This document shows positions 21,291 to 49,918 of a stretch of DNA of 64,000 bases, piece after piece. Origin of the DNA: Paramacrobiotus metropolitanus (lineage: Eukaryota; Tardigrada; Eutardigrada; Parachela; Macrobiotidae); NCBI RefSeq assembly GCF_019649055.1, contig NW_026570245.1, positions 1 through 64,000 of the forward strand. The letters run 5' to 3'. The notes beneath the pieces were generated by a model. It did not search any database. It was given only the letters and a program-made list of their open reading frames with translations, and had not been told where the DNA came from. Position numbers and translations under genes: made by a program. Every line of letters starts with the position of its first letter. Positions within the stretch are counted from its first letter, which is position 1.

Positions 21291-23156
21291 CGAATCCAGT
21301 TGGACGTTTCGTTTCTTAGTTGACGGTGTTCCAAGCTGTTGTTTTGTTGCGGTTTTCAGGGACTGGTTGACAGAATTGGACGTAAATGGAGACCGAAGAT
21401 CCGCTGGTCATTGTACAAACGAGTTCTACCAACCCGGAATGCCAGCATTAAATAAAATCGATGTGATGTGTATACGAGTATGGACTATGTACGGCTCACT
21501 TAGTTCACAAATAAAACAACAAAATACGGTTGTAAACGGCTATGACAAGAATAGTTCCTCTAATTTCTCCTGATCCGGTATACAGAGTGTATTGTGCCCA
21601 TCACGTACAGTAGGACCCGTTGTGCCCATTGTGCCCATTCTCGAGGCTTAGACCCGTTGTGAAAAGAAGTGAAATGAAATGGTGAAATAAAGTGAAATGA
21701 AATGAAACGTGAAATAAAAAATATACTGTTAGCCGCTAGATGAAATGGCACTACTTTTAGATCCGACCGCTGCCTGCCTCCGGCCGGACAGCGCGCTTTA
21801 TGCGTCGCACAGAGCGGTGCCTCTTTGAATTTTGTATGGAGATCCGCTGCCGGAAAAAATCTTTCGCGCGTAATCGTCCGGTAGCGGCCGCGATGCCCGC
21901 ATATGGTGTCCGATTTTATTGACCACCTTCTGAACTCCGTCGCCCCAGGGTCCGTATATTTTAAAAGCCGCGGGGATAAAGTTATACCGTGGCTGAAGCG
22001 GCACATGGACAATTTGTTGAACACCGAGACTTTGCTGACGACCTTCTGAATTCTGATGGCCGAAAAAATCAACTCCCGAAGCCCACTAAAAACCCAAGAA
22101 AATCTAAGATAACTCAACTTAAGATAACCTAAGATAAGTCCAAGATAACCTATGAAAAACCTAAAAAAACATGAACCTAAGCCTAACGCGACCAAAAAAT
22201 TCACAACCGAGAATCCAAAAAGAACCCCGGACTTAATAAAACACCAAGAAATCTGACAATGTTAATCATCAACATATGTCGGTCAGCAACATTGTCGTGA
22301 AGCATAACGGAGATCCATAAACTGATGTCCTACCGCGTCGGTCTATCCCCTAAAGAGGAAAAGATGGAAATTATGTAAGGGAAATTAGGAAAAGATGGAA
22401 AGTAGGTAAGTGCTGCTGTATCGCACAATTCATAGACCAGTTAGTGAGCTGTACCCATGGTACGAATGACGATGCTGATGAAACGCAACAGACTCGCATT
22501 CGGATTGTCCAACGGAAACCAACAAGTATATTCAAAACTTCTCCGCATTTTATTCACAATCAATCCAACTTTCCAAGTCTCGCGTTCCGGAAGGAGTATT
22601 GCAGTAAATATCTCCCGGTGTTGGCTGCCATGGACAATGCAGGAGAGAGCTGCTGGCCCTGTCATGCAGTATCCACGACAGCCAACAGAGACGCTGGTCT
22701 TGGCTGGCGGTCAGCTGCACCGGTTCCGCGTGATCAGCGTGATGACAGTGCGGAGGTCGCGGGTGTAGACGGGGTTCCATGGGGGCTGTCATAAAATTTA
22801 TCTGACGTCACGAAGAGCGTACGTCACGCTTTTCCAATTCCACAATCCCAATACCATTTCGCAGTGGTACTGGCGCTGGCGCTCGTGCAATTACTATGCG
22901 AACCTGTACATCAGGTACCCGGATTTGCACCGTTATCACGATGCAGAAGCGGGGATCCGATGTTAAGGTTCGAAAAGTACATATAGTGAAATCACTCAAA
23001 ACTCGTGTTTTAAGACGTTATTCGATGCGCTGAGATACGTATGTGAAAACGTTCTGCGTGGGGCCATTGCCATTGGATCGACGCGTCATCGAACTGCGCC
23101 TGCATGGGCGTGAAATTTACCATCGCTAAAAATTTGTGATTTACTCCCGAAATTAA
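21291..23156. other. Intergenic DNA with low-complexity stretches
   Basis: Holds the DARS2 3' UTR, a gtgcccatt repeat near 21590-21640, a gaaatgaaat-type simple repeat at 21660-21720 and an aagataacct-type repeat at 22090-22180. The short overlapping frames at 22440-22800 have no recognisable domain. No gene supported. Confidence 0.45.
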
Positions 23157-23160
23157 TTAA

Positions 23161-23839
23161 GGGATTTGGCCCGGTACATAGTACCAAATTTGTATACATC
23201 CACGGCAACTTTCGCTGTCGCGCACTCCCACACACTTTTTTGCATTGCTTTATGATGTTTTATAGCCAAAGGATTCGCATACATAGGCGAATAAACCGTT
23301 TGTGCGCGCAACATCCGGTTCGGGAGTTATTAGTGAAACAAAATTCCAAAAGGTTAAACGCACGGAGGTGTACCAAAGTCTCATTATGAACCTATGCTCT
23401 TCAAATTTTGCACGGAAACGCACGTTACTATGTATGAAGATCGTTTTCGTACCAAACCAGCTTTCTACCATTTTTTTTTAAATTTTGAATTAATTTTTAA
23501 AATTTTTGAAATTTATTTTAAAATTTGAAAAAAATAGTAGAAAGCTGGTTTGGTACCAAAACGATCTTTACAATAATGTGCGTTTTCGTGCAAAATTTGA
23601 AGAGCATCGGTTCATAATGAGACTTTTGGTACACCTCCGCGCGTTTAACCTTTTGGAATTTTATTTCATTAACAACTCCCGAACCGGATGTTGCGCGCAA
23701 ACGGATTTCACGCCTACGTATACAAATCCTTTGGATACAAAATGTCATAGAGCAATGCAAAAAAGTGTTTAGGAGTGCGTGACAGCGAAAGTTCCCGTGT
23801 ATGTACCCGAATTTGGTACTATGTACCGGGCCAAATCCC
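23161..23839. mobile_element. Foldback MITE, TTAA-flanked, copy 2
   Basis: A 679-bp near-palindrome with arms of about 300 bp. The ends read gggatttggcccggtac and its mirror, with TTAA immediately outside both (23157-23160 and 23840-23843). The centre is an AT-rich spacer. It shares gcgcaacatccgg, cttttggtacacct and tctcattatg with copies 1 and 3. No coding capacity. This is the cleanest copy and best defines the family's ends. Confidence 0.85.
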
Positions 23840-24181
23840 TTAAGGAATTAACTATGAAATCGGAATATAATCTGGAAAGTAATCCGGAGAATTGGTGATA
23901 TACTGTACGAGTACTACTCGTACTAATATCATTTTGAAAGTTAAGACTTTGATTACAGAGTAATTAATAAATTAGAGAACACGCGAAAAGCAATTATAAA
24001 TGGAGAAAATTAAGAAGATATTAAGAAAAACAGCGGAAAGTTTGGTCATTTAAACGGATAACTATTTGGAACAGGTTCGACGTTATTTTGGAAATTATTT
24101 AAAAATACATACAATAAATTAGTTGTTTAGAAAGTACTAGTAACTGGGAAATTAACTTCCGAAGGAATATGTGAAAGGCAG

Positions 24182-25850: not shown

Positions 25851-26100
25851 GATGAAAGTGGATCGGCCAACGGCTGGATATTACCATGATCAAGAAACAG
25901 CTGCCCGGTGACTACAAGCCTGTCGACAAATTGAGCATGTAAAAGTACAGGTGGAGCGATATTAGCGCGAAGTTAGCGCTTGAATAATGGCCACTGCACT
26001 ACGGTTATCGCACTGCGTAACTACGCTTCCCAGTTAGCTTCTCCCTTACTGCACCCGTGCACCAACCGTTTTCTAGCCAAGGCAGTTACAATTATTCTGA

Positions 26101-26747
26101 CGAGGCGCATACCCCAACTCTTGATTCTCTGATCAACCTGTGCTTGGTGTCGTTAGATTCCTTAGAATTTTAGCAATCTTTTCCAAAAATCAACTTTTCC
26201 CCAGCTAAAGAACTGGGATTTAGAGATCTCTGAAAACCCATCGCACACATGATGGCTGACTTTGCAAAGAACGTCAGCAGACGCTGTTCCGACCGCAATA
26301 CGATCTACGGCGTCCATTTACGGATGCGTGCTTACGCAACCGTCTTTTATGGAGATTACAAACTGCAGTGTTTGTCGATAGCTATCGCACCTTTTTACCC
26401 CATTGCGCGCACTAGCAATGACTGGCTGCATCGGCATCAATGCAACCGTGGACGATGGCGCGCGCGATAGGGCAAAAAGCCGAAACATCTATCGAGAAGC
26501 GCAATACAGAATCAACAGATTTGTAGCGAGACTAGTCGCAGGTACTGCGCACAAATGCGTATGGCGTATGCTGACGTGATGATCGAAGTCAGCCATCATG
26601 TATGCGCTAGTTTCTCAGAGATTTCTAAATCCCGGTTCTTTAGCTGGGGAAAAGTTGATTTTTGGAAAAGATTGCTTAATTTCTGCGGATTCTAACGATA
26701 CCAAGCACATGTTGATCAGAGAATCAAGAGTTCGGGTATGCGCCTCG
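26101..26747. mobile_element. TIR element with about 170-bp inverted ends and candidate 3-bp target duplication
   Basis: The ends read cgaggcgcatac inward on both sides. Inverted similarity extends about 170 bp through ttgattctctgatcaac, ccagctaaagaac and tggctgac. TGA lies directly outside each end (26098-26100 and 26748-26750). A 3-bp duplication would fit PIF/Harbinger- or CACTA-like mobilisation, but this is inference from ends only. The interior has no transposase. The element stops 46 bp before the Polinton target duplication. Confidence 0.65.
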
Positions 26748-26793
26748 TGAATAGAATATCTGGCGTGCACCCAAGCCACCAGCCAGCAAAATG

Positions 26794-26799
26794 CGTGTT
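26794..26799 (+). repeat. Polinton target-site duplication, left (cgtgtt)
   Basis: The six bases cgtgtt directly precede the left terminus and recur directly after the right terminus at 49919-49924. Six bp is the standard Polinton duplication, so both ends are exact. Confidence 0.95.
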
Positions 26800-26954
26800 A
26801 GAAGATATAGCGCTAGTTTACCGTCAGCTCCGAATCGGTCCGGTTTTCGACCGGTCCGCGGTTCGGCTTGTAATCGGTTCGGTTTTCAGTCGGTTTGAAC
26901 CGGACTGGAGCCGATTGTCCCCTTTCTTTGGTTTATTTTTCCCCACCCTCTTTT
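26800..26954 (+). repeat. Polinton left terminal inverted repeat
   Basis: Matches the right end (49774-49918) in inverse orientation. The outer 100 or so bp are identical, then comes a short length difference, then another 40 identical bp. The outer part is built of variants of cggttcggtttt. The inner part holds a pyrimidine block (cccctttcttt ... ccccaccctctttt), read on the minus strand as an AATAAA-bearing 3' cassette for the leftward gene that ends at 26985. Confidence 0.95.
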
Positions 26955-26984: not shown

Positions 26985-28209
26985 TTACAAGTGAAAATAT
27001 AAATTATCAGGACCATTGGAGGCAGGACAGTTGTGCTTCTTACATAAATGATCCCAACGCGGATCAGAGAGAGGCTCAAAATCTCTAAGTTTACAGTTGC
27101 AGTAATAACACTGAACACAATCTTGTGTGCCAAAATGAAAAAATCCATCTCCAGCTAGTTCCATGGGTGAGGGTTTCAGATGTGGCCATCCTTTGAACGA
27201 TTCCAAACGTGACTCTAAAGTGTCGTAGTTGCCGAAATCATCTATTTCGCGATTGGTTAGGGTGTTGCTGGCGTGTTCGGCAAGTTTATCGGCGAGCGTA
27301 ATGCTGTTCTTGTATCCATCACACAGTTGTAGCCATGCCTGCGGTATACTTTTGAGACCGTGCCAAGCTCCGGCAATAGCACCCGCCAAGGTTGCAATTC
27401 CGTCAGTGCATCCACCAACCCGTATTGTAAGCGCCATGGTCGCTTCAAAAGCATTTTCAGGCGCCAGACTGGTTCCTTTTAGTACGCAGTAAATAGCCAT
27501 AGGTACTGCTTCTAGTCCCGCGGAATCATTACCAAGGGCTTTCACCACGATATTTGTTTCTTGCGACAGCAGCGTTTTTAAAATGAACTAGTTTTGGTTG
27601 ATACAGCTGAAGGTTAATGCCTGAGTCACACAGCGTGATTAGCATGTCCAGAAACTGTTCTGGAGTAAAGTAGGGGTATTGTAGGGCTACGGCAATAGCG
27701 TAGGCTTGAAGTTCACATGCTCCGTAAGCTTCCATTGCGGGATGTGTGAGTTCGGCAACGCTACGTACGTTGCGGATCATCAGCTCTGTCTGATGTCTAA
27801 AGTAAAGTGGGTACGCTGGAATCCACGCAGCTGGGCCGTATCCTTTGAGGAACGTTTTCGGTACAATGTTTTTCGGTAATGTGTCAAAGGTGTTGTAATT
27901 GCTCCACTTCCAGTGATGTATTATATCCTTAAGCTTCCCAAAAGCCGAGCGTATGACGGGATGTGCGCTGTAATAAGCTTCAACGCACGCTCGAGCGGCA
28001 GACACTGCATCATAACCCCCATCATCCAGCAATGCATTACCCAGCGCGTTTGTTAAGACGGTCTTCTCACGATAAGAGCGGTAGTCTCGTGTATCAACGA
28101 ACAACTGCGCAACCTTGTGAACAATGCCATGATACGCCTTCAAGGGAACGCATAAGCATTCCCCCAGCATACCCCCAACTAAGCAACCACGAAATTGGTC
28201 CTTCTCCAT
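26985..28209 (-). pseudogene. Polinton cargo: ADP-ribosylhydrolase (ARH3-type) with C-terminal BIR domain
   Basis: The N-terminal region reads as an ADP-ribosylglycohydrolase: FRGCLVGGMLGECLCVPL at the start, then the all-helical body. Near the end of that region come the motifs ALGNDSAGLEAVPMAIY and GGCTDGIATLAGAIAG, which correspond to conserved ARH3 blocks. Directly after it comes a BIR zinc-binding domain (RLESFKGWP, then CYYC, then a His and Cys), as in inhibitor-of-apoptosis proteins. Known ARH3 enzymes remove ADP-ribose from serine and from poly(ADP-ribose); BIR domains bind caspases or IAP antagonists. Whether this copy had activity cannot be judged. The gene looks broken (about one break). 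It is leftmost in the element and faces the left TIR. Confidence 0.8.
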
Positions 28210-28607
28210 TTTCCTTGCGAATGATAGATTTTCCAGTGCAACTCGAGTTTAAATATTCTATAGAATAAAGTTACTTTATTTACAACCAATCACCGCTCTC
28301 ATTTCTAAAACATTTTTGAGTTTCCAAGCTACGTCACGTACGGTTTAGCCAATCGATAGGAGCTTACAGTATATAAGGGCGTAGCTATTTTTCGATTTTT
28401 CAGCCAATCATAGATGAAATAAAGTGTTTTTTTGTTTTGAATGACGTAAGTGTGAAAAAGGCGGAGTCTGATCGGAATTTACGACCAATGGGGTAAGCGG
28501 TTGGTTTTCTCAGACACAGCTGGTGAGTATAAAAGCGACGCGACTGGCCTTTTCCAAATCAGTCTGAAAAAAAGTTGAGAGCAAGTTTTTGCCATATCTC
28601 AACAGAA
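28210..28607. promoter_or_regulatory. Polinton divergent promoter region with two TATA and four CCAAT boxes
   Basis: TATA boxes lie at 28370-28377 (tatataag) and 28528-28535 (tataaaag). CCAAT occurs near 28287, 28349, 28403 and 28483 on the plus strand. The downstream TATA is about 80 bp from the first rightward Met (28608). The leftward ARH3-BIR gene starts at 28209, with only a weak AT-rich box for it near 28245. The density of promoter words is far above that of the flanking DNA. Confidence 0.7.
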
Positions 28608-29054
28608 ATGGATTTCGCACGCATTTTAGATGTTGTTGGTGATCATGATGGCTACACTGTGTACAAAGTCAATAGTGTGGTTAGCCTGTTCTGGAATGCT
28701 AAAGAAGTACGGGCATTTCTTGTGTTCGAAGCAAATGCGGATGCTGAGGGCTTGCGTAAAGCATGGAATAAAGGAATCCGATTCGGATACAATGAAATCA
28801 CTGAATTGCTAAAGATCCTGAAGAGTGGACATTTGAAAGATTCGCTGGATAACGCAGCATCTGAAGGCAAACAGGAGAAAATGAAATTCGATGGCCCCGC
28901 TTGCCTGGAATTGACTTTGAAGGTGCACGAAAAGTACGGGCGCACAATCAGGTTTTCTCAGCCCGGGCGCTCTGTTCAGCTACCATACATGGGATTCATC
29001 GATGTGGCTCGAATCTTGGACGATAGCTTTAAAGCGCAATCTCTTATTGTTTAG
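28608..29054 (+). CDS. Polinton protein of unknown function, 148 residues
   Basis: An intact frame from the Met at 28608, the first after the TATA box at 28528; an upstream Met at 28575 is also in frame. The protein is mixed alpha/beta in composition, with no signal peptide or TM segment, and contains LLKILKSGHLKDSL in its middle and LPYMGFIDVARILDDS near its end. I do not recognise it. As first gene after the strongest promoter and directly before the TBP-like gene, it could be an early or regulatory protein. That is inference. Confidence 0.6.
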   Translation: MDFARILDVVGDHDGYTVYKVNSVVSLFWNAKEVRAFLVFEANADAEGLRKAWNKGIRFGYNEITELLKILKSGHLKDSLDNAASEGKQEKMKFDGPACLELTLKVHEKYGRTIRFSQPGRSVQLPYMGFIDVARILDDSFKAQSLIV

Positions 29055-29133: not shown

Positions 29134-29829
29134 ATGAGAAAAAAAAGGCTGAAAAACGCCATTATTTGCGACAGTCTCAGCAGTGAAGTATATAAAGCCT
29201 TCTTGCTGACACTGTTGCAAGTAATGCGTTCAGTCATGGATATCCACAACATTATTCTGGCGGTACAGCTCAACGAGAAAGTTGATCTGCAGCATGTTTT
29301 AGAAGTTTTCGGGGAACATGCTACGAAGGTGAAAAATTTCAACGCAGTTAACATCAGACTTGTAGACCAGTCACATACATTCTGCCAGATCTTCCAGAAT
29401 GGTAAGGTAATCGTAATAGGTGGCAAGTCCATAGAAGAATCAAATGGGCTATTAGAACAGTATTTGAGAATGTTGAGGGTAAACTGCATCGACGTGACTA
29501 TTAAGGAGCGCTTTGTGGCAAATATAGTCTGTACGTATGCTTACAGTGAAATAATAAATTTAAATAAGCTGTATAGCCAGATTTTGAAAGAAAAGCCAAC
29601 GGGTGTCGCATTTTTCTATGAACCTGAGCTTTTTCCAGCGATCAAACTGCGGTTTCCGTTATTGAAAACTACCGTAAACGTTTTCCATACTGGAAAGTGT
29701 GTGGTTCTCGGAGCGAGATCACTGTTGCAGATTCAACGCACAATTGAACAGATTAAAACCTCCTTGAAAAGTATACCACTACGGTGTGGAAAAGTGAAAA
29801 AATCTGATCGTTTCAAAAGCAACATTTGA
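29134..29829 (+). CDS. TATA-binding-protein-like protein in the Polinton
   Basis: 231 residues with two successive TBP-type repeats. Repeat 1 (about residues 35-125) runs from DIHNIILAVQLNEKVDL to the strand FQNGKVIVIGGKS, matching the TBP pattern NIV..V.L...LDL ... IF.SGK.V.TGAKS. Repeat 2 (about 125-220) has VANIVCTYAYSEIINL, the hallmark YEPELFP, then VFHTGKCVVLGAR, matching NIV.SCDV...I.L ... YEPELFPGLIYR ... IFVSGK.VLTGAK. TBP binds the TATA minor groove and nucleates RNA polymerase II initiation in the nucleus. The frame looks whole. I do not know TBP as a usual Polinton gene; giant viruses encode such proteins. It may drive the TATA-bearing promoters of this element. A host-derived capture is equally possible; divergence from cellular TBP is large. 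Confidence 0.85.
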   Translation: MRKKRLKNAIICDSLSSEVYKAFLLTLLQVMRSVMDIHNIILAVQLNEKVDLQHVLEVFGEHATKVKNFNAVNIRLVDQSHTFCQIFQNGKVIVIGGKSIEESNGLLEQYLRMLRVNCIDVTIKERFVANIVCTYAYSEIINLNKLYSQILKEKPTGVAFFYEPELFPAIKLRFPLLKTTVNVFHTGKCVVLGARSLLQIQRTIEQIKTSLKSIPLRCGKVKKSDRFKSNI

Positions 29830-29897: not shown

Positions 29898-30533
29898 ATG
29901 GAAAAACTGAGTTTTGATTTCCGCTTTAAAACTCCCTGCGCGATATATATTTCTGGTCCAACTATGTCAGGAAAATCGACTTTTACAATGAAACTCTTGC
30001 GAAATCTTACGTAGAGTTTCAATCCACCCCCTGTTAGAATAGTATATGCTTATGGTACTTGGCAAGATGCCTTCCAGGATTTTGGAAAAGATATTGAACT
30101 TGTCCAAGGTCTTAATCCCATCGTAGAAGATGAGAATTTTTTCGACAAAGACGTCCCGAGCCTGCTAGTTTTAGATGATCTAATGGAGGAAATTGCTGGA
30201 ACGCCAAGGTGTTCCTCGATTTTCACTCGCGACGTTCATCATAAAAATGTTTCTGTAATTTTTATATCTCAAAATTTATACAAACAAGGAAGGAGCATGC
30301 GTGATATCGCTCTGAATTCTCAGTACTTGGTAATTTTTAAATCAGTTCGCGATGTTCAGCAAGTTAAAACACTTGCACGTCAGTTAGGTATGCCACATAT
30401 GCTGGAGGCCTACCGAAAGGCTATAAAGGAACCCTTTGGTTATTTACTGATAAACCTTAGACCCGAAGCTCCAGACAATGTTCGTCTTCAGTCGCACGTG
30501 TTTGAGTACAGACGCATATATGTAGAAAAATGA
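29898..30533 (+). pseudogene. Polinton genome-packaging ATPase (FtsK/A32-like)
   Basis: Walker A reads GPTMSGKSTF near the N-terminus, and a Walker B-type strand (LLVLDD) follows about 80 residues later. Further on, FISQNLYKQG and the C-terminal QYLVIFKSVRD strand follow the A32-like packaging ATPase family that pumps DNA into capsids of Polintons, adenovirus-like and nucleocytoplasmic large DNA viruses. Its end overlaps the next start codon (ATGA at 30530). The region looks broken (about one break). Confidence 0.8.
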
Positions 30534-30850
30534 AACCAGAAGAAATTTTTCGACTTATTGAAGCGTTAAAGCTTCTGACACCACGTCAGAGAAGAAGCTT
30601 TTTCCAGCTGGCAACTAAACAACAAATAAGCGCAATCGAAGAAGCCTGCCTAAACCTAGTTAAGCAACCCACCGGTCTTAGCAAAATTGATTTAGCTCGG
30701 GCTCGAAAACATTCTTCAACAATCAAACGTCTAGCTGACCGCAGTACAGACCGTTCAAAGAAACGTAAAATATTGCAACAAAAAGGAGGATTTCTCAACG
30801 TTTTGCTTCCAGTATTAGGAACGTTAGTCTCCACTTTTCTAGCAAAATGA
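30530..30850 (+). CDS. Polinton small basic protein with hydrophobic tail (pX-like position)
   Basis: 106 residues, Arg/Lys-rich in the middle (ARARKHSSTIKRLADRS), ending in a Gly-Gly followed by a hydrophobic helix (FLNVLLPVLGTLVSTFL). Small basic proteins with such a GGF junction and hydrophobic tail are common in Polintons and adintoviruses, where they are compared with adenovirus core or membrane-active peptides processed by the viral protease. Start and stop overlap both neighbours by ATGA. Confidence 0.6.
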   Translation: MKPEEIFRLIEALKLLTPRQRRSFFQLATKQQISAIEEACLNLVKQPTGLSKIDLARARKHSSTIKRLADRSTDRSKKRKILQQKGGFLNVLLPVLGTLVSTFLAK

Positions 30851-31947
30851 AGACGTACGTTTTAGTTCCCGAAACCGAGTTTTTAAAACAGAAGCATGCT
30901 CGGGAAGGTGTTCCCGCGCCGACTGCTTGGAAAAAGGCTCAAGACATTGGTCATGAAATTACACAGCAGCTCATGGCGAAGGCTGCTTTGGATTACCAGC
31001 GTTTAAACAATACGGGTAACGCTCCAGTCGCGACTCCATTGTTGGAAACAGTGCAAGTTGAATCTGGTGCTCCTGCTACCAATACATCACCCATAATGAT
31101 TGATAAAAGTATACAAGCTCATTCTACAGGTGTTCTTAAAGATCAATATAGTCAAGCGGGTCCAAACGTAACCCATCAAGTTGTGCAGGCTGTTCCGACA
31201 TTTCATGAACAGGGTACTCAAGCAACAGCCCCACCGTTAGTTGAATATAAGTATGTCGAGGTACCATCACAACCAATTGTACAATATGTACAAGTGCCTG
31301 GTGAGCCGCAAATACAAGTCGTTCCAAGCAAACCGGTAGTCAAACATGTTTATCGGAAACCGAAAAAACCCCCTTTGGTCAAAAAAGTCCATGTTAGACG
31401 CATTCCGAAATCCGATAACACTTTAAATGCCGCTATAGAATACGCTCCTACTCCGCCTAGTGTTCCGATAGTGGAATTTCCTGCTGATGGTGTGTTAGAA
31501 TATCAAGTACCTGACAATGGATCCGTCCCGGCTGTGGAAAAAAACCAACTAGCTATTGAAGGGTTAAAAGCGCTTGCCGTTAAACCGAAAACTTCAAACC
31601 GGCTCCGGCAAAAGGACAAAGATCAGCAACTTGCTATTGAAGGGTCGAAGACGGTGGCAATTAAGCCAAAAACCTCTAACAAGCTCCAAAAGGCCACACC
31701 AAAACCTAAGCAAAGGGCTGCAATTGCTAGTGGTTCTCAAAGACTAGCAATAGAGGCCAGTGAGAAAGAGCAGGCAGCTATTACCGACACACCGCCGCTT
31801 AAGGCTTTAACATTCGAACAATCAAATAAAGCTGAAAGTTCAGGTCAGAACAAAATTCAGTTGAGAAAACGTAATAAACCGTCAGGACCTCCCGCTAAAA
31901 GACACAAAGGTGGTATACAAAGAGGTGGCTGGCTCTCGTACACATGA
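30847..31947 (+). CDS. Polinton Pro/Lys-rich protein with internal repeats
   Basis: 366 residues, rich in Pro, Lys, Val and Gln, probably largely disordered. Internal repeats include LAIEGLKALAVKPKTSN and QLAIEGSKTVAIKPKTSN, with a third weaker unit. The tail is KRHKGGIQRGGWLSYT, again with Gly-Gly sites that could be cleaved by the adenain-like protease. Unknown function; a virion-associated or DNA-condensing role is plausible from composition and from its place between the small basic protein and the integrase. Joined to both neighbours by ATGA overlaps. Confidence 0.55.
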   Translation: MKTYVLVPETEFLKQKHAREGVPAPTAWKKAQDIGHEITQQLMAKAALDYQRLNNTGNAPVATPLLETVQVESGAPATNTSPIMIDKSIQAHSTGVLKDQYSQAGPNVTHQVVQAVPTFHEQGTQATAPPLVEYKYVEVPSQPIVQYVQVPGEPQIQVVPSKPVVKHVYRKPKKPPLVKKVHVRRIPKSDNTLNAAIEYAPTPPSVPIVEFPADGVLEYQVPDNGSVPAVEKNQLAIEGLKALAVKPKTSNRLRQKDKDQQLAIEGSKTVAIKPKTSNKLQKATPKPKQRAAIASGSQRLAIEASEKEQAAITDTPPLKALTFEQSNKAESSGQNKIQLRKRNKPSGPPAKRHKGGIQRGGWLSYT

Positions 31948-32992
31948 TGAAGCCCACATTAGATGATTTGTATTTGAATCCTGTTTCTCAAGGAAGTTTA
32001 GGTGGCATAGACCGCTTGTACAAAGAAGCCAGGAAACATGGATATACACGAAAGCAAGTTAAGGCTTACTTAGAAACCAAAGACGCATATACACAACACA
32101 AACCTTTTCGGTCTAAGTTCAAACGCCGAAAAATTATTTCCGTTAATGTGGGTGACCAACATCAAATCGATCTTGTGGATTTTCAAAAATTTGCTAGTTA
32201 TAACGATGGGTTTAAGTATATTCTTATGTGTATCGACTGCTTTTCTCGTTATGCATGGGCAGAGCCGGTTAAATCCAAACGGCCTGCTGATATTCGTGGA
32301 GCGCTTTTGAAAATATACAAGAGTGATTATCCTCCATTACGCGTTCAAAGCGATAATGGCAAGGAATTTGTTAGTAAAGACATGCGTAAGTTTTTTGAAG
32401 AATGTAATGTTACATTTTTTACAACAAAAAACGATGATGTAAAATGTGCGATGGTTGAACGTCTAAATCGTACCATTGAAGACCGGTTGTATGTGTTCAT
32501 GACCGAAAACAACACATACCGATTCATAGATATCCTTCCTAAGGTTTTATCCGCTTACAATTCTACAAAACACTCGGCTACAGGAGTAGCCCCTAAAGAC
32601 GTCGGTCCTGATGAAGCTGAGCAAATTCTCCAGAAGATGGTTGATGAACAAAAAGGTATGAAAAATCCAAAACCAACATTTTCTGTTGGTGATCATGTAC
32701 GTTTGGCAAAAAAGAAACAGACATTTGAAAAAGGGTACGAGACTCGTTTCACAGAAGAAGTTTTTAAAATAACCCACGCTACACGAAGCGGGAGCCATTA
32801 CCTTTACACAGTCGAAGATTTAAGTTTTATCCGGAAGAGTTATCTAAAGTCACAATGGCAGAAAAGCCATATCATAGGATCTCTAGGATATTAAGGGAAA
32901 GGAAACATAAAGGAAAAGTACAATACTTAGTACGTTGGTATGGATACGGTCCTGCTTATGACTCGTGGGAAAACAAAGAAGATTTGAAATGA
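31944..32992 (+). pseudogene. Polinton retrovirus-type integrase with chromodomain
   Basis: Retroviral-type rve core: an HQIDLVDF strand supplies the first Asp, VQSDNGKEF the second, and MVERLNR the catalytic Glu, in DDE order. A YILMCIDCFSRYAW segment is typical of Polinton and gypsy integrases. The region ends with a chromodomain signature (YLVRWYGY, then SWE). Integrases of this kind insert Polintons with 6-bp duplications, as seen at the ends here. The region looks broken (about one break). The start overlaps the preceding stop, and the end overlaps the minor capsid start at 32989. Confidence 0.85.
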
Positions 32993-33731
32993 GTTTTTGC
33001 ATGACATTGCCGTCTTCGGCGTCAGAGGGGTTATACCCTGAAAACTGCCCTGGTAAATTTACAACGCTGCTCGCTAGACCTATAGATTTAGACGGTGCGT
33101 GGGAAGTAGGTCTTTCGGAAATTATTCTACCGCCTATGCGGATAAAGTTTAATACCGGATTATCCATTGCTGTCTCGCGTTACGGTATGCCGTCTAGAAC
33201 TCATAGATTCGTCGATCAACATGCTTTTGAGGATGAAAATCATTTAATTCGGACGGTTAACAAACTGCTGAGGAAAACGTAGATGATAGGGACTCGAAAA
33301 CCTACGGCCAGATAATAGCGAGTGGTCAAGCAGCTCAGTTAAACATCACGCCGGGCCTCGCTTTAACTTTTACGGGCTCCGAATACGCGCGCGCACTAGG
33401 TATACTACACCAGTACACATATAACAGCAGAGATGCTCTGTCTCATATGTTATATCCGGGACTGCATAATCGTCTCGTGCATGTGTATTGTGACGTGATT
33501 ACACATGGGTTGGTAGGCGACTCAATGGTGCCTTTACTACGCACCTTATCGACTCAAGCGAATTCATTTCGAGAGACAGTAATTCGTTTTGAAAATCCGC
33601 ATTATATGCCGCTAGCCTACCATACGTTTCAAACTATAGAAATAGCGATGCGCGATGATTTAGGGAAGGAGGTACTCTTTCATCCAGGTACATCAGTAAT
33701 TAAATTACACTTTCGACCAAAGAAGCATTAA
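32989..33731 (+). pseudogene. Polinton minor (penton) capsid protein
   Basis: The position between integrase and major capsid, the size (about 245 codons) and the opening motif fit the single-jelly-roll minor capsid of Polintons: FTTLLARPIDLDGAWEVGL followed by EIILPP. Later, FHPGTSVIKLHFRPK resembles the usual C-terminal strand. It would form the pentameric vertices. The region looks broken (about one break). It is followed one base later by the next gene. Confidence 0.75.
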
Positions 33732-33732
33732 A

Positions 33733-34116
33733 ATGGTTCTACAGGAGTTAAAATTTGACGAGCACCGCTACACCCAGATCTTCACCAAACAGCATGGGTA
33801 CGGCATGCCATATTATCGTGGCGCACCCATGAAAGGTGGTAGTTTCTGGGGACGTGTGATTGGATTTGCAAAGGGTTTGTTCAGCAAAGCTGCGCCGCAT
33901 ATAAACAATTTAATTGCAACGGCCCAACCTCACATGAAAACAATGGCCAGCAAAGCTGTGGAATCCGTAATCGATAAAGCTGTTGAGCGTGTTAGCGAGA
34001 AATTACGCAACACGGCTCAACAACAGGGGTCGGGTATTAAGGGTCGTCGTCGAAAGAGAATGATCAAACCCACGAAACGTCAACGCGCAATAGACGCTAT
34101 AAAAGACAAATTGTAA
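33733..34116 (+). CDS. Polinton pVI-like small capsid-associated protein
   Basis: 127 residues. A Gly-Gly-Ser-Phe motif (KGGSFWGRVIGFAKGLF) opens an amphipathic helix, then comes a basic tail (GRRRKRMIKPTKRQR). The layout resembles adenovirus pVI: a membrane-lytic helix released by the viral protease and a DNA-binding tail. Lies 1 bp after the minor capsid and 2 bp before the major capsid. Homology is inferred from layout only. Confidence 0.55.
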   Translation: MVLQELKFDEHRYTQIFTKQHGYGMPYYRGAPMKGGSFWGRVIGFAKGLFSKAAPHINNLIATAQPHMKTMASKAVESVIDKAVERVSEKLRNTAQQQGSGIKGRRRKRMIKPTKRQRAIDAIKDKL

Positions 34117-34118: not shown

Positions 34119-35465
34119 ATGGCTCTTATTGAAGCTGGCTCAGAACCCTCCATGCTTTTGGAAAGTCACTTGTTTTATCTTCCAGCTACGCTAACGGAAA
34201 GGTGGAATACACATGACTATGACTTGGGCCCGTCTCAAGCCGTAACCGACGATTCAAACGATATTGTATTTACAATTTCACCGTGTCAAACCGAGCTGAT
34301 CAGCTTAGCTGACATTAGATTTTCATGTGATTTACACGTTACTAATTCTGCTGGTACTGTTCCAACAGAAAAAGACTGTCTTGCACCAATTAACAATATT
34401 TTGCATAGTTTATTTCAATCAGTTACGGTTTCATTGGGAGGTCGCAACATAACCGATAACAGTCCCTTGTATCACATTCGAGCGTACATTGAATCCCTTC
34501 TGGGTTTCACTGTTCAGGCTCAGAACAGTCAGTTGAGCCTGTGTGGATTTGCGTTGGACACTGACCTTGACAAAGACCCGTTATACATGAATGAGATAAA
34601 TGGGGCAACAACATTTCATAGTAAGGGTGCCGAAACGCGAAGAACATGGTTGCAGACTTTCCGTCCGTTGCAGTTGTCTGGTAAACTACACTGCGATTTG
34701 TTCCAGCAAGACCGTCCACTAATTCCTGGTGTAGAGTTGAGCATTAAACTAATACGAAACAGGGCTAATCTTTGTTTTCTTACTGATAATGATCTAGCGG
34801 CTCCGAAGGCTTTTGCTATTCGAAACCCCAAGCTGAAAGTTCGAAAGTATGAACCTTCTCCAGACTTTTTAGCAGCCATGACAAAGCAACTAGTCACAAC
34901 TAATGCAAAATATCACATCGAACGGGTTGCTTTAAGACAAACCACAATGCAATCAGGCCAGCAGCAACTATCCTGGGCGAATATTGTTATTGGACAGTTA
35001 CCCAAGGTAATGTTCTTTGCAATGTCACCCAATCGCTCATTCGTTGGCGATTTTAAGTCAACTCCGTTCAATTTTCATCATTTCAACGTATCTAACTTAA
35101 GTGCTGAAATTGATGGACAGCTTTTTCCTACACGGGGGTACAACTTAGATTTCCAGAACGGTGCGTCAATTGAGGGTTATGAAGGGTTGTTAGATACTCT
35201 AGAGCGGCTGCATGAAGGTCATGGTGAACTACCGTTTGACAGGTCCGTATTTAACAAGGGTGGTTTCAATATTTTTGGGTTTGACTTCACTCGCGGCCAC
35301 ACGGGCAGAGGAGCCTTGTCACTGATAAGGCAAGGTAATTTAAACATCAATGTTAAATTTGCAAAACCGCTACCTGAAGGTATAGTTTGCATAGCTATGA
35401 TGGTCTTCGATAACATTATCGAAATTAACAACAATCGCCAAGTACTTTTCGACTTTGCGCCATGA
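34119..35465 (+). CDS. Polinton major capsid protein (double jelly roll)
   Basis: 448 residues, intact. N-terminal features typical of Polinton hexon proteins are present: LFYLPATLTERW, then DIVFTISPCQTELISLAD, then PINNILHSLFQSVTVSLGG, which shows the conserved start of the first jelly roll. The second half contains RPLIPGVELSIKLIRN and FGFDFTRG. It forms trimeric capsomers of an icosahedral shell. The end overlaps the protease start by ATGA. Confidence 0.9.
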   Translation: MALIEAGSEPSMLLESHLFYLPATLTERWNTHDYDLGPSQAVTDDSNDIVFTISPCQTELISLADIRFSCDLHVTNSAGTVPTEKDCLAPINNILHSLFQSVTVSLGGRNITDNSPLYHIRAYIESLLGFTVQAQNSQLSLCGFALDTDLDKDPLYMNEINGATTFHSKGAETRRTWLQTFRPLQLSGKLHCDLFQQDRPLIPGVELSIKLIRNRANLCFLTDNDLAAPKAFAIRNPKLKVRKYEPSPDFLAAMTKQLVTTNAKYHIERVALRQTTMQSGQQQLSWANIVIGQLPKVMFFAMSPNRSFVGDFKSTPFNFHHFNVSNLSAEIDGQLFPTRGYNLDFQNGASIEGYEGLLDTLERLHEGHGELPFDRSVFNKGGFNIFGFDFTRGHTGRGALSLIRQGNLNINVKFAKPLPEGIVCIAMMVFDNIIEINNNRQVLFDFAP

Positions 35466-35962
35466 ACAGCCTACAAATAGATTCAGCGCTGAAACAAGAT
35501 CCTAACGTTCGCGACATTTTTGTCGGAGTATTTGCCAGTGATACGCTGCCAGTAAAAGAATTTCCAGGTGCATACATATCTAACACTCAACCGTCAGGTG
35601 CGGCGGGTGAACACTGGGTAGCATTTTATTGTACAAAACCCGGTACGATAGAGGTTTTTGATTCGTACGGAAAAAATCCCGGCGACTACTCAGATGACAT
35701 TGAAAAATGGATAGACAATGACTTTGTTATAATGTCGAATACTGAGCGACAGAACACCGATAGTACTGTATGTGGTCAATATTGTATGTTTTTCGTTTTA
35801 TTACGTTGCTACGGGTTTTCGTATAAAGACGTCATGTCTGCTCTCACTAAGCATAAAGGGGTGAATGATAAATTTGTATGTAAATTCATCAACAAGTTCT
35901 TCCGACTAAGGACTGTAGTCCGTGACGCAACATTTATACGCGACCTTATAAGAAATGGTTAA
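35462..35962 (+). CDS. Polinton adenain-like cysteine protease
   Basis: 166 residues, intact. The C5/Ulp1-type triad is visible: His in GEHWVAFY, acidic partner in IEVFDSYG, and Gln/Cys in STVCGQYCMFF. It processes capsid precursors at Gly-rich sites, consistent with the GG motifs in the neighbouring small proteins. Overlaps the major capsid by 4 bp and the next gene by 8 bp. Confidence 0.88.
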   Translation: MNSLQIDSALKQDPNVRDIFVGVFASDTLPVKEFPGAYISNTQPSGAAGEHWVAFYCTKPGTIEVFDSYGKNPGDYSDDIEKWIDNDFVIMSNTERQNTDSTVCGQYCMFFVLLRCYGFSYKDVMSALTKHKGVNDKFVCKFINKFFRLRTVVRDATFIRDLIRNG

Positions 35963-36160: not shown

Positions 36161-36200
36161 CCCCTTTCTTTTATTGATTTTTTCCCCACCCTCTTTTTTC
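36161..36200 (-). terminator. 3'-end cassette shared with the TIRs
   Basis: The block cccctttctttt ... ccccaccctctttt repeats the inner part of both TIRs. On the minus strand it contains AATAAA (36175-36170), 25 nt past the PolB stop. The same signal in the same gene-relative orientation follows the leftmost gene (in the left TIR) and the rightmost gene (in the right TIR). Confidence 0.6.
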
Positions 36201-39200
36201 TATCGCGTGCCAAAAGGCAGCGTTGTAAAATCATCCAACATGATGCGCTTGTCGTAAACAAGCTTCAATTTCTTAGCTAACTGAACAGTATTAATTTCTT
36301 GGGTTTTTCCATTTCGTTTGATGTATTCTGGATATACAACCTGAACATGCCCATCCACACCATCCAGTAACCGCTTCAGCTGGTTAAAATCCAAGGCTTT
36401 TCCAGTCCGCGTCAGCTCCTTCGTGACCGAGTCCCAATCCAAAATATCTTCCGTAAATCCGTTCTGCATCATACCTTTCACTTTCAACTCAATGCGCCCC
36501 GTATCGGTTTCGTAGCTGTACACTTTTGGACCACAGGAGACAAATTTAACGATGTGATTCTCGCCAGCTTCTAGCTGGTTATCCCAGTCCCCAAGAATAC
36601 TGCCGGTATCAGGAAGCCAGTCGCCAGGCCGGTGGATAAATATTACGGAATCCGTGTCGTAGTACAGCAGGCGCTCGCCCAACTTTTCCATGAGGGATAA
36701 TAGTATAAGTCGCGCATGGCTGGTGGTGAAAGCGGCAATGACAACATTCGTACCGTTGCTGCCTTCATTGTAGTCATCCACTTTCGAGTGTGTTACCATC
36801 AGACACGTTGGGCTTACGCCATAGACATCATGTATTTCAATAGCTTTTGAACGACACAGATCAGAATACCGTTTGGGGTCGTAGACAAACTCCGTTGAGT
36901 TCATATCGCAACTTTGACCGGTTTTACCCCATAGACTGTTCACCACAATCTTGGTTGTGCTCTTCTTTCCAGCATCGAAAACCATAGCATCAGGATCCAA
37001 GGAAATGCCTTCGCGTTCTTTAACCGTCTGAATAAACTTGGCTTTCTTTTCATCGGTATCGCACCACGCAGGCCAACCACTGGCTTCCATTTTCACTTTT
37101 AAAAACTTGTCCATGTATGCCGCAAAGAGCTTGGTGTCAGACTGCGTCCAGTGCCACACTTCATACATTTCCACAACACGATACCCCACATCTATCGCAT
37201 GATGTAGTTCCGGTGTCGCCCAAACCCCTTCGAAACAGCGATCATCGTCTGTATGCGCACAGCGGCTCGCCGCTTTTTCCATCGCGCATTTTTTGCACAG
37301 AACAAACATGAGCTTGCCGTTTATCGTGGCTGGTAAGACTGGATACAGGCATTGATCCGGAGCCGCTACCTTGCAGTAGACCAGTCCAAAATAATCTTTG
37401 GCATCCTTGAAATTGGACACGATTACTTCAGGATGGCCAACCGGGTATGCCTTGGTCTTGTTTACGAATGGGTACAAGCTAACAACGTCATAGTGCCTAA
37501 TTTCTTCGTCATCTTTCACTTGGTAATACAAACGACTGGCATTCGTACCCTGACTACCCTGACTTTCAAGGAAGCGTTCGCGTTCCTGGAACTCTTCGTA
37601 AACTTCGCGCATTTTCTTCTTGGAGTATGGTACAACATCGTTTTCTTCAGTACAGAAAGGATGTCCATGGAAGACGCAGCCGTTATACTCGTAAACGGTT
37701 TGTGTCTCCTTGTCAAAACCGTCTACAAAGTATCGCCCAATTTTAACTTCTTTACCGTTCCGACCATGGCGTATACGGCCGTTTGCGCTCATGTTCTCCC
37801 ATTCCAGCCATTGCGTGGCTTGAATACTAGTCCGTCGGTTTCGGTGCGGTCCGTGACTGGATAACGCGGCAACTTTGTTCTCGGGAAGGTGAAACATTCT
37901 CCAGTACCGGTAGCAGGCCGAAGGCATGGTCATACTTTCCATTGGATTCAGCGACGTCAGAGCTTGGTAATCGCTGATAAACTTTAACGCACACACACGC
38001 AAAACCGTAACATCGTTCGAGCAATATGTCATCATCTGCTCGCGAAAATTGAACACCCCATTGGCGGCCGCTTTAGCTTCAGCGTGCCACTTAAGAAATT
38101 CTTCTTTTTGCTTTCTTCGCATTCCATCAATCATATACTGTTCCGGCTCGGGCCAGGGCAAATCAGTTTTATCCCAGTTTTCAGGCTTATTAAATCGATG
38201 TGGGAAGTCGCCTTTCTGCACTTCGATTTCCAGGCCAACCGCTTTTGGTAACTGACTCAACTTCAAAGCCAGAAAGTTAAGGGTATCACGTGACCGGATC
38301 CCCAGTTTGCGGTACCGCAATTCCAACAACTGCGTCCCACGCTTGATGACCTCCACTCCTTTCAAACCATTGTCCAACATGTACTTCAGAACAAAATGTC
38401 CATCATAGCCTCGAAAATTGTGTGCTATGATAGTGAATCCCCGATGCTTTTCTTGAAACAGCCAGCGCCCAAATGCCTCATCAACTTCCGCATTCATCGG
38501 CTGACCATCTTCCGGAAAACGTACTTCCGAACCATCAGCATATTGCGCAACGATGCATGTGGGCACGTGACCATTCACTGGATCGTTGTAGGTTTCGTAA
38601 TCGAAGAAAATGTATTTCATTTCTTCTTTCTGCCATGGTGGCGGTGCCTTGAGCGGCTTTATGTAGCACAAATGCGTAGCTTGGAGAAAAAAACCATTGC
38701 ACGTGTTGCAATAAATTTCCCCGCACTGGTGTGTTACGTTTTGCCACGAATGGATAGGTTCACAAAAACACCGCATGTCTGGCAGATGAACATTTGCTCG
38801 CAATAATTCTTTCCATTTTTTCTTTTCTTCTTATGGATATCGTAACACTGTTGGTTGTGGAACCGACGGCTGCATTCAGTGCAGGAGATTGGATTGTCCA
38901 CGAGACAGTCGCTCTTGTTGCGGTAGCACGACCTACATTTCCCCTCGCAACGATGACGTTCTTTATGATGATACGGTCGATCGCAATCATTGCAGAAGTA
39001 GGGTGAGCAGTAAAAGCCTGTCGCGGTTGTGACCAGGTCAAAATGCTCATTGTCCAGCAACAAAAAAATCTCCTGCATATCATGGGTTTTACGTTCGGGT
39101 ACCCGTGCAATAATCATGTCGCCTTGATTGGCCGATATAACTTTAATTTGAAACTCGGGAAATTCATTTTCCTGTAGCACACCTAGGGCATCAAGGTCGC

Positions 39201-40194
39201 AGTAATGGCCAGGTTGCAGATCGCAGTTATTCATTATCTTGATGGCCTCCGCTTCCAAGCTGCGAGTGCGGTTAGCGCGAATATAATTGTTCCATTTATT
39301 CTTATGCTGCGGAACTTCAAGGTCATGCGTCAGGCGAAATTTCCCCAGGAACAACGCGGCAGGCAAGCACAGGTTATTTTCTACACGGACGCTTACAATG
39401 GATTTCTTGAAACGATTTCTGTCATGCTTAACATGCTGATGCCTGAGGAACCAGGATCCACCAGCCGGCATGATAGAACGCCAGATCCGTATGGTGAAAG
39501 AATCGTCAATCACCAGCTTCTGGCCGGAGTTCAGAAGCTCAATACGATGCATAAAAGCGGGTATGCTAAAGTCAGAGAGCTTTCGCATGGTTAAATAGAA
39601 CGCTCTTTCAAGCCCATCCGATTTGAGAGCCACAACAACACGGTCCGTCGGGGCAAATTCTTTAAAGCACAAATCCATTATGACGCGCAGGATTTCCGGC
39701 ATGATGAGCATGGTTTCTTCCTTTGCAAAAATTCGCGGTAGCGAGGCTATCTGGACACGGTATTTCTGTTCAGTGCTGTTGAAGGTTTTGAAAACGCGTT
39801 CCGACTCTTTGACCAATTGAAACAGACTTGAGAAATCGGGCAGCGATTCATCTCGGACCACATTTCCACCAGCTTGCGGCACTGGAGGATCTTCATACTG
39901 CCAGTCGTCCAGTTGCGCAAGAGCAAGAGCGGCAGCTAAAGATCCGGGGCTCAACTGATCAACCTGATCCAGGTGCAGCAAAGCCGTTGCTAGAGTCTGT
40001 TCATCGTGTTCATTGAACTCATTGGGATTAGCAATCATGTGATCAAAGGCTGCTTGATCTTCAACGGTTAACTGGTACGCATCATTAACTTGCTGCTGCT
40101 GCTGCTGCTGCTGCTCATCATCGACATCCATCCACGGCTCACTGAGAATGGCCGCAATAGCCGCATGATCAGAAGCAGTCAACTGATAAGTCAT
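36200..40194 (-). pseudogene. Polinton protein-primed family B DNA polymerase
   Basis: About 1,300 codons, the largest gene of the element. Its N-terminal part has a Gln run from a CAG repeat, then a Cys/His-rich cluster (CNDCDRPYHH and later CXXC pairs). The exonuclease domain opens with IFFDYETYNDP and continues with GHFVLKYML. The polymerase palm carries YYDTDSVIF, and VVNSLWGKTGQ lies upstream of it. This protein-primed PolB replicates the linear element from its TIRs. The gene looks broken (about one break). A TATA box (40252-40245) and CCAAT boxes lie upstream. Confidence 0.92.
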
Positions 40195-40244: not shown

Positions 40245-40252
40245 CTTTTATA
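40245..40252 (-). promoter_or_regulatory. TATA box of the Polinton PolB gene
   Basis: tataaaag on the minus strand, about 50 bp upstream of the PolB start at 40194. Two CCAAT motifs on the same strand lie near 40284 and 40315. Confidence 0.7.
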
Positions 40253-44517: not shown

Positions 44518-44584
44518 CTCGCAATTTGCCTAATTTCTAATATTTCTTGTTTTTAAAAATTGTTTTGTTTGTTAGGAATCTCGG

Positions 44585-45563
44585 ACTTGAACCATTGGTC
44601 ACTGTCTTGTGTCTTTGTGGTAGAGGTTTAGCCTGGAACTAATGTTGTGGTATGTTGTACTACTGTTGTACTAATGTTGTACTAGCCAACTGTGTTATGT
44701 TGTAGTGGGTGGCGATTTGTATTAAACTACGTTAAACACAGTGTGTGGTGCCATGTATTAAACTATGCTGTCTAGCTTGTTTATAAGCACGAAGAAGCTC
44801 TGTCTAGCTTAATCATTAAATCAAGTTTTTAGTCTATCTGCACTGGTATAATTGTAACAAGGATAGGTCCGGCTGTATAGGTTAAGATACTATTACATTT
44901 TGTGCCCATTCATTAAGTAAAAGAATGTCACGATTAGCTCCGGTTAGCTTCCATGAATACGGAACTACCGTATTGTTTTATGAGATGAGTGGCATCGTTC
45001 TTTGAATATTAAATGCTTTTAATCCGGGTTCAACGTGTTTGTAGTCGGGAGTTTATTGTATATCAAATTATACACTAGCGGTCTATGGGTCAATAAAACA
45101 AAACCCTTTTATCAACAGAGGTTTCATTAGTATCCGGGTTAATAAGACAGCTAGTGACGTAACACAGTGGTCCGAGCGAAGCGAGAATACGCGCCCTCTC
45201 GGTGTGTGCGCGTGAAGCCGAAGCCCAATTTCAAGTCTGTGTAATAGATGGCTGTTGTATCAGTACGCTCGTATTAGTTTAAGCCCGCCCACATGGGTTC
45301 TCTCTGATATTAGCGCGTTTCAGTCACTCATTGTTTTAGGAACGGTTTTTATTGGTGGATTCCAAACTGAAGTACGTCCACGTAGGTTTCTCTCTGATAT
45401 TAGCGCGTTTCAGTCACTCATTGTTTTAGGAACGATTTTTACTGGTTGATTGGAAACTGAAGTACGCCCACGGAGGTTTCTCTCTGATATTAGCACGTTC
45501 CAGTTACTTTCGGTAATACAAGCAACGTTGGTATTGTTCAGTGAAACGTTACGGTTGGTTACT
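44585..45563 (+). repeat. Polinton internal inverted repeat, left arm
   Basis: About 980 bp that recur in inverse orientation at 47788-48770 with near identity; I saw only a few differences, mostly in run lengths, until similarity fades at the outer edge. The arm holds two to three tandem units of about 98 bp beginning ttctctctgatattagcgcg (45298-45495). Part of the arm (about 45056-45215) is repeated directly just inside it at about 45566-45715. Confidence 0.9.
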
Positions 45564-46041
45564 AGTATATCAAATTATACACTAGCGGTCTATGGGTCAA
45601 TAAAACAAAACCCTTTTATCAACAGAGGTTTCATTAGTATCCGGGTTAATAAGACAGCTAGTGACGTAACACAGTGGTCCGAGCGAAGCGAGAATACGCT
45701 CTCTGTGCGCGTGAAGCCTGCTGCGCTCGGCCGCGGCTTTGGCTTTGCGCGCGCGCCTCGAGGGCGCTTTATAATGGACCTATGGTACACATCTTTATAA
45801 AGTGTTTTTTTGTTTCTGCGACAAATCATTGAACCAGTATAACTATTTTTTAAACACAGTTTAATAGACCGACAACAGATTTCATTCAGAGTTCACATCA
45901 AGAAGTTATTGTTAGACATATTGTTATTGTTAACATTTTCTTAACAACATTGCACCCATCAACCGCAAGTTACATAAAAGCCATCATTAGCAAAATGGTT
46001 TAGCTAAGGTAACAACATGAAGAAGAGAAAACAATTCATCA

Positions 46042-47536: not shown

Positions 47537-47656
47537 GGAGCAAAAGATAAACTGAACTAACTAAAAATATAAGGGAGATCCTGGCAGGTATTCCAAGGTA
47601 GGTGGATTGGATTAAAAAAAACTTTGGAATGAAAAAATTTGCTTGGTCGCTGAGGT

Positions 47657-47663
47657 TTTATAC
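47657..47663 (-). promoter_or_regulatory. TATA-like box of the bracketed cargo gene
   Basis: Reads gtataaaa on the minus strand, about 120 bp upstream of the Met at 47536. Confidence 0.5.
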
Positions 47664-47787
47664 TCAAAAAAAGTGTAGGTTTCAACTCTTAAAAGTTAAC
47701 ATAACGTATGAACTATTGTTTTAGTTACTTGTACTACGCAACCCGTTAACTGAACTCCGTTGACCAGACTAAAAATTGACGTTTAGA

Positions 47788-48770: not shown

Positions 48771-48928
48771 CTAATACTCCAAGTAATGCTGTACGTGGAG
48801 ACGACGAATCCGACCCATACGATAATCTTGCAGTATAACTAGGGGTTGGGCTACACGGTGATGAACCAATAGCTGGCGAGCACACTGTGCTAGGTGTTTT
48901 GCCTTGAGTTGACACGACTGATAGATAC

Positions 48929-48936: not shown

Positions 48937-48975
48937 CGCTAGCATTTCAGTGCGGCAGTTCAGTTGGTAGCCAAA

Positions 48976-49773: not shown

Positions 49774-49918
49774 AAAAGAGGGTGGGGAAAAATAAACCAA
49801 AGAAAGGGGACCAACCGGTTCAAACCGACTGAAAACCGAACCGATTACAAGCCGAACCGCGGACCGGTCGAAAACCGGACCGATTCGGAGCTGACGGTAA
49901 ACTAGCGCTATATCTTCT
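49774..49918 (-). repeat. Polinton right terminal inverted repeat
   Basis: Inverse of 26800-26954. On the plus strand it begins with the agggtggggaaaaataaacc cassette, whose AATAAA (49791-49796) lies 60 nt past the IAP stop. Confidence 0.95.

Follow-up and report, generated by a model that had tools for sequence, protein, structure and literature searches.

Does a Polinton in a tardigrade genome encode its own TATA-binding protein (TBP), and what would such a protein do there? The question is raised by a frame on the forward strand (29134–29829) of a 64,000-nucleotide stretch of the Paramacrobiotus metropolitanus genome (contig NW_026570245.1, positions 1–64,000; hereafter, the window), in which a preliminary description made from the letters alone had recognized two TBP repeats. 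Polintons are frequently put close to the root of many DNA viruses of eukaryotes. The 231-codon frame is open throughout, and the Pfam TBP family PF00352 matches it in two stretches with 88.7 bits (cut-off 22.9; E=2.3e-25), as the claim of two repeats led one to expect. Sequence matches in the PDB are TBP chains, span residues 32–220 and reach E=1.5e-11. The structural check that the preliminary description had proposed gave a concordant answer: a model predicted from a 61-row alignment has a mean pLDDT of 89 (mostly 93–98 in the core, taken in blocks of ten), the PDB entries at Foldseek ranks 1–44 are TBPs or TBP-containing complexes (best E 1.5e-14), and the saddle fold aligns to 3oc3_C with a TM of 0.86 by target length. 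Among predicted viral structures, the top named matches are giant-virus TBPs (best 50 of 61 matches at E≤0.001). The strength of the profile and fold matches rules out a chance resemblance, and we conclude that 29134–29829 is confirmed to encode a two-lobed TATA-binding protein.

The gene lies within a complete Polinton insertion of 23,119 bp (26800–49918). A repeat search within the window and direct comparison of both ends delimited terminal inverted repeats of 104 nt that begin with AG and are 100% complementary (left, 26800–26903, + strand; right, 49815–49918, − strand), flanked on both sides by the 6-bp target duplication CGTGTT (26794–26799 and 49919–49924). These ends, a viral/organellar-type DNA polymerase B (PolB) and a retroviral-type integrase are the Polinton features present. 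At the left end, an ADP-ribosylglycohydrolase gene with a C-terminal BIR reads in two frames on the − strand (26985–28209; PF03747, E=4.3e-11 and 4.7e-14; PF00653, E=6.9e-14). The first rightward gene, ORF159 (28575–29054, +), has no Pfam match and is present in all eight loci of the window's lineage (L001–L008, the window being L001); it is conserved, has its own TATA box TATAAAAG (28528–28535, +; 80 nt 5′ of the ATG at 28608) and has weak relatives in L024 and L025. The TBP gene follows, and then a packaging ATPase candidate (29898–30533, +), recognized by its Walker A motif GPTMSGKST and its position, with a C-terminal piece that has no Pfam match. The gene order had thus been described correctly, and so had the contrast between an intact TBP frame and broken neighbours: the ATPase candidate is interrupted by an in-frame TAG (30012–30014), and three further genes, the ADP-ribosylglycohydrolase/BIR gene, the minor capsid candidate and PolB, each read in more than one frame.

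The rightward block continues on the + strand with ORF106 (30530–30850), a conserved gene with no Pfam match above cut-off; the proline/lysine-rich ORF366 (30847–31947; DUF7239, 25.3 bits against a cut-off of 24.6); the integrase (31944–32894; PF00665 rve, E=1.4e-13); a minor capsid candidate (32965–33731), named by position only, whose two pieces lie in different frames and are both conserved in other elements; ORF127 (33733–34116), a small basic protein without a Pfam match; a major capsid candidate of 448 aa (34119–35465), proposed from its size, order and conservation, which has no Pfam match and shares 45% and 44% identity with its counterparts in L027 and L028; and an adenain-like (C5) cysteine protease candidate (35462–35962), which follows the capsid gene and whose PF00770 match (E=0.043) lies below the Pfam cut-off. 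Within this late block, the genes at 30530, 30847, 31944 and 35462 overlap the preceding stop codon in ATGA junctions, an operon-like packing. PolB occupies two frames on the − strand (36200–40194); PF03175 matches 36200–38803 (E=8.7e-42), and the piece at 38734–40194 has no Pfam match and matches other elements. A TATA box TATAAAAG (40245–40252, −) lies 58 nt 5′ of the PolB ATG. Near the right end is a second BIR (IAP-like) gene with two BIR stretches (48964–49599, +; PF00653, E=3.2e-38). The element therefore has two BIR genes, one of them fused to ADP-ribosylglycohydrolase, and BIR-like frames also occur near TBP in L010, L021, L025 and L026; judged from their sequences, the BIR genes are possible anti-apoptotic cargo. 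The right part of the Polinton also contains a nested element of ~4.2 kb (44575–48780; inverted arms of 535 and 380 nt, 99% complementary), and just left of the Polinton are two fold-back repeats, 23151–23849 (arms 85–95%) and 26091–26757 (arms 87% complementary), which are perhaps small non-autonomous elements. The window also holds a gene (53357–54085) that matches a fucosyltransferase of Paramacrobiotus metropolitanus with 99% identity across 93% of the gene's length.

The TBP gene probably starts at the ATG at 29236 rather than at the beginning of the frame, giving a protein of 197 aa, because the nearest environmental homologues begin there (MEIVNI...) and because the conserved upstream 'VYK' coincides with a TATA box, TATATAAA (29189–29196, +), 47 nt 5′ of this ATG. 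The box is identical in L007 and reads TGTATAAA in L024, a lineage with 45% identity.

To what extent is this gene a feature of other Polintons? A genome search with the window protein gave at least 152 matches (150 of 290 candidates scored) and one with the Pfam TBP family at least 150 (150 of 493 candidates scored); once both sets were merged at 3 kb and the cellular gene of the host was set aside, at least 194 TBP-like loci remained. Of the 120 integrase loci obtained after merging (126 of 1165 integrase candidates scored), 95 have a TBP among the matches listed within 8 kb, while random placement would put one within 15 kb in 3.4%. The 25 integrase loci with no listed TBP within 15 kb may lack the gene or may have it beyond the matches listed. 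Conversely, a listed integrase lies within 15 kb of at least 99 of the 194 TBP loci, again among the matches listed. We inspected 27 non-host loci, eight from the best matches (L001–L008, one lineage, ~3.7 kb each) and 19 picked by hand, and Polinton genes adjoin TBP in all 27, the window included. The 28th locus, L009 (C4, about 3690–4174, − strand), is the candidate cellular TBP gene; it reads in two frames two bases apart, which is either an assembly error or a damaged copy.

Three arrangements recur. TBP lies upstream of the ATPase in the same direction (L001–L008, L017 and L024–L026), is divergent from it (L012, L013, L015, L021 and L023), or comes after the protease and convergent with PolB where PolB is in the stretch (L011, L014, L016, L022 and L027); in L010, L020 and L028, TBP also comes after the protease, and only the protease side is in the stretch. 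L018 and L019, within ~27 kb on C140, are rearranged remnants of Polintons, in which fragments of TBP occur with ATPase pieces duplicated in inverted orientation. A single odd element is rejected as an explanation, given that TBP recurs across diverged Polintons. We conclude that TBP is a real, recurrent gene and a component of tardigrade Polintons.

Where does this TBP come from? A protein database search with P0001 alone gave no matches, and one with a 10-row profile gave 259 of 2705 candidates, of which 120 were listed. In a quick tree of 130 rows, the 14 Polinton rows fall together with 74 of the 112 database rows (SH-aLRT 95), separate from host, yeast and Arabidopsis TBP and from the insect TBP-related factors (TRFs). 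A careful tree of 48 rows agrees, with a group of 31 rows supported at 96/88 (99/93 with P0096 and P0116 added) that splits into two clades (99/98 and 100/99) and in which the window TBP pairs with L024 (96/96); both trees have long branches and omit giant-virus, mirusvirus and herpesvirus TBPs. The 10-row profile also retrieved the insect TRFs (P0080, P0081, P0085, P0087 and P0093), which are TBP paralogues; unlike the Polinton proteins, all five have L114, T124 and T215 unchanged, and the TRFs fall with cellular TBP. A recent capture or pseudogene of host TBP or of a TBP-related factor has in its favour family membership alone, with 29% identity to the host TBP piece; a recent pseudogene of host TBP is the outcome that the preliminary description had named as fatal to its reading. 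The AU test rejects, under the model used, both a tree in which the window TBP is held with three TRFs and the TBPs of host, yeast and Arabidopsis (p=2.8e-7) and one in which the window TBP and L024 are held with host TBP (p=2.3e-4); a host pseudogene or TRF is thereby ruled out, and at least 194 loci in the genome also speak against recent capture, to which we give almost no credence. Some metagenomic relatives lie on contigs of 12–26 kb according to the database listing, and IMG/VR scans with P0001, A1, A2, A3, capsid A4, P0026 and P0060 yielded no confirmed loci; these relatives may come from the genomes of other animals, tardigrades included.

The coding sequences point to purifying selection on most Polinton TBPs. 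Specifically, dN/dS is 0.09–0.22 in all seven TBP pairs with L007 (dS 0.39–0.65), 0.08–0.20 in the seven computable of ten pairs in the L011 group, and 0.19 for L020–L028. Higher values were obtained for L001 with L003, L004 and L006 (0.42, 0.67 and 0.85), whose C-termini read in another frame, and for L002–L003 (0.96), L013–L023 (0.52) and L015–L023 (0.38), where dS is 0.02–0.11 and substitutions are few. The pairs among L017, L025 and L026 as well as L001–L024 are saturated.

To ask which parts of the protein are kept, we counted residues in 82 rows (10 Polinton and 72 database sequences; 45 in clade II, which includes the window protein, and 37 in clade I) using yeast numbering, at positions that we take to contact bases or TFIIA in TBP. 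The intercalating aromatics F99, F190 and F207 are kept in all 82 rows and F or Y is found at 116 in 80; the window TBP has F at all four. Of the dyad asparagines, N159 is kept in 81 rows and N69 in 73, and both are kept in the window TBP. The window TBP also keeps the TFIIB-contact glutamates, of which E188 is present in 81 of 82 rows and E186 in 65 (42 of 45 in clade II and 23 of 37 in clade I). Several base contacts have changed. Common to both clades are L114 to Q (80/82), T215 to L (82/82) and V203 to T (73/82), while the replacement of L205 differs by clade, being N in 39 of the 45 rows of clade II and V in 35 of the 37 rows of clade I; moreover, T124 is N in 58 of 82 rows, and V122 to T and V213 to N are found in 36 of 37 clade I rows. 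Of the changed base-contact positions, L114 and T215 are the same in host, yeast and archaeal TBP. At the TFIIA lysines 133, 138 and 145, the window TBP has N, Q and V, and the loss of TFIIA contacts is uneven: 38 of 82 rows have K or R at 133, as do at least 16 of the 37 rows of clade I at 145. The yeast variant TBPm3 (I194F, V203T and L205V) reportedly uses TGTAAA, and V203T with L205V in most clade I rows recall two of its three changes. In PMC10005294, three second-repeat substitutions are described as letting TBP use TGTAAA.

In sum, the window protein resembles cellular TBP in its two-lobed saddle, the four intercalating aromatics, the dyad asparagines and the TFIIB glutamates, but differs from it in having only 24–28% identity (Foldseek ranks 1–44), changed base contacts, no TFIIA lysines and a place in a separate clade.

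If such a protein reads promoters, which promoters would these be? The preliminary description had credited the element's genes with strong TATA boxes, and this holds for the early side and not for the late block: matches of 8 of 8 positions precede three of four early-side genes (ORF159, TBP and PolB, at −80, −47 and −58) and only one of eight late-block starts (the capsid candidate, at −21, inside ORF127), in a scan of the window element for which the minor capsid was given an uncertain TTG start and the start of ORF159 was displaced by one base. Upstream of the late genes of this element, no shared motif rose above 20 shuffled controls (6-mers exact, 7- and 8-mers with one mismatch), and TATTWAA, TATTTA, TGTAAA and TGTATA were not above shuffles; TATTWAA and TGTAAA precede none of its eight late genes and one of its four early-side genes. 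Clade I TBP genes have no 8-of-8 TATA box. In at least 10 of 13 clade I loci (L010–L016, L022, L023 and L027), an upstream frame with a similar end (e.g., LPQTTLSKAETFANWL and LPVSTLRKAVRFALW) runs 13–68 nt into the TBP gene, an overlap that suggests coupled translation of TBP with an upstream partner gene. Because clade I TBPs lack the box, some of them follow the protease and most overlap an upstream frame, an early-expressed TBP is not general, and therefore the early-TBP picture applies to the window's lineage.

We also considered the partners of the protein. TFIIB domains were found at three loci only in the whole genome (8/8 candidates scored, a search that a very diverged TFIIB could escape) and in none of the 18 window-element ORFs scanned against Pfam. 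Because three TFIIB-domain loci stand against at least 194 TBP loci, Polintons seem, from these counts, to bring TBP without a companion TFIIB; the small number of TFIIB loci and the glutamates kept in the window's clade fit the use of host TFIIB. Some lineages carry acidic C-terminal tails that contain tryptophan, of 198 aa and charge −9 in L017, of 272 aa and charge −33 with seven W[FILV] motifs in L025, and of 32 aa and charge −8 with one such motif in L026; from their composition, these tails look like acidic activation regions. The TBP of the window's lineage has no acidic tail, its C-terminal end being basic, and the window TBP has no W[FILV] motif.

Virus-encoded TBPs offer points of comparison. 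The ORF24 protein of KSHV resembles the Polinton TBP, beside which it is set by description, in being a virus-encoded TBP fold, with host Pol II used by the virus, and in combining retained phenylalanines with polar residues where the DNA interface is normally hydrophobic (PMC12529657; PMC7498053); its phenylalanines are needed, asparagines occupy normally hydrophobic interface positions, and the late promoters are TATTWAA (PMC12529657). ORF24 differs in having further N- and C-terminal domains and in working with five other viral factors, and it was not among the viral fold matches listed (best 50 of 61 at E≤0.001). Giant viruses and mirusviruses are likewise DNA viruses that encode TBP: the gene is conserved in Mimiviridae (PMC3620924), and it was found in 59% of mirusvirus genomes as opposed to 0% of Nucleocytoviricota in the clusters of one study (PMC10132985). 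A TFIIB-like gene accompanies TBP in nearly every TBP-encoding dsDNA virus, and roughly 40% of viral TBPs retain the first TFIIB glutamate (PMC7221094, whose positions C.L3.2 and C.L3.4 appear to correspond to E186 and E188). CpV-BQ1 (PMC12085832) and megavirus, which has its own RNA polymerase (PMC11464507), likewise have a TFIIB-like gene. The giant-virus type thus has a companion TFIIB, in contrast to the Polintons here with only three genomic TFIIB loci. With Polintons/Mavericks and adintoviruses, the window element shares the integrase, PolB, the inverted ends and the 6-bp target duplication, and it has candidates for the ATPase, capsid and protease. The main texts of the Polinton papers PMC11071308, PMC11071296 and PMC10120064 contain no mention of 'TATA' or 'TBP'; an excerpt of PMC10675990 places TBPs in algal elements of putative mirusvirus origin and not in Polinton-like viruses; the relevant passages of three papers containing both 'polinton' and words that begin with 'TBP' report no such protein; and no Polinton TBP was found in the papers searched, a scope that excludes the adintovirus paper (veaa055).

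From the sequence we infer a role in promoter recognition. Our working hypothesis, which we regard as evenly balanced between right and wrong, is that the Polinton TBP is the element's own promoter-recognition factor and drives an early-to-late switch on host machinery. The early genes, which in the window's lineage are ORF159, TBP and PolB, have ordinary TATA boxes from which host TBP would read them. As the Polinton TBP accumulates, it would bind a non-canonical minor-groove site via its changed base-contact residues and bend the DNA with its four retained aromatics. Host TFIIB, via the retained glutamates, and host Pol II would then be recruited to the TATA-poor late block with its ATPase, integrase, capsids and protease. 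The protein would probably be less TFIIA-dependent, as the window protein lacks the contact lysines and the group does not conserve them, and some lineages may gain an activation region from their acidic C-terminal tail with its tryptophans. The outcome would be an early-to-late switch like that of the ORF24 of beta- and gamma-herpesviruses. The fuller proposal, that animal Polintons have a herpesvirus-like early-to-late switch in which a private TBP of a virus-specific lineage has shifted its minor-groove specificity (L205 to N or V by clade, V203 to T in both) and borrows host TFIIB and Pol II, is more tentative, and we would expect it to fail somewhat sooner than to hold.

The same observations can be read differently. 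A Polinton TBP with ordinary TATA specificity could simply add to a limiting dose of host TBP, so that the element's TATA-box genes are read well, without any early-to-late switch: the perfect TATA boxes before early-side genes, the window protein's full set of four aromatics and two dyad asparagines, TFIIA lysines that are not lost throughout, the absence of TATTWAA and TGTAAA before late genes and the failure to find another late motif are all consistent with this, but base-contact positions that are invariant in host, yeast and archaeal TBP have changed (L114 to Q in 80/82 and T215 to L in 82/82), and we consider it unlikely, albeit worth keeping in view. Retained TFIIB glutamates together with the absence of TFIIA lysines in the window protein would also suit a decoy or shut-off factor that binds host TFIIB or promoters, forms dead-end complexes and blocks host transcription. 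A pure decoy, however, needs neither DNA-kinking residues, which are conserved over deep divergence, nor the activation-like acidic tail of some lineages, and this makes the idea improbable. Finally, TBP adjoins the ATPase in some arrangements and sits between the protease and PolB in another, which could hint at a DNA-architecture role in replication, packaging or the choice of integration site, e.g., steering integration to promoters. Yet the position of TBP varies between lineages, and therefore it is not tied to one partner, and the TFIIB-contact surface is retained; we regard such a role as distinctly improbable, more so than that of a decoy.

If the proposed early-to-late switch driven by a Polinton TBP is true, TBP would be a lineage-defining core gene of this Polinton group and its many metagenomic members would belong to Polintons of other hosts, either free or integrated. 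A TBP that is conserved, has changed DNA-contact residues and lacks a companion TFIIB would represent a minimal natural case of promoter re-routing by one factor, and with it the way in which a virus tells its promoters from those of its host can be tested. At least 194 loci in one animal genome, along with the metagenomic relatives, constitute a large natural set of TBP variants. The gene content and residues described here suggest that Polintons may rely on a promoter-recognition factor of their own to express their genes, in the manner of some herpesviruses.
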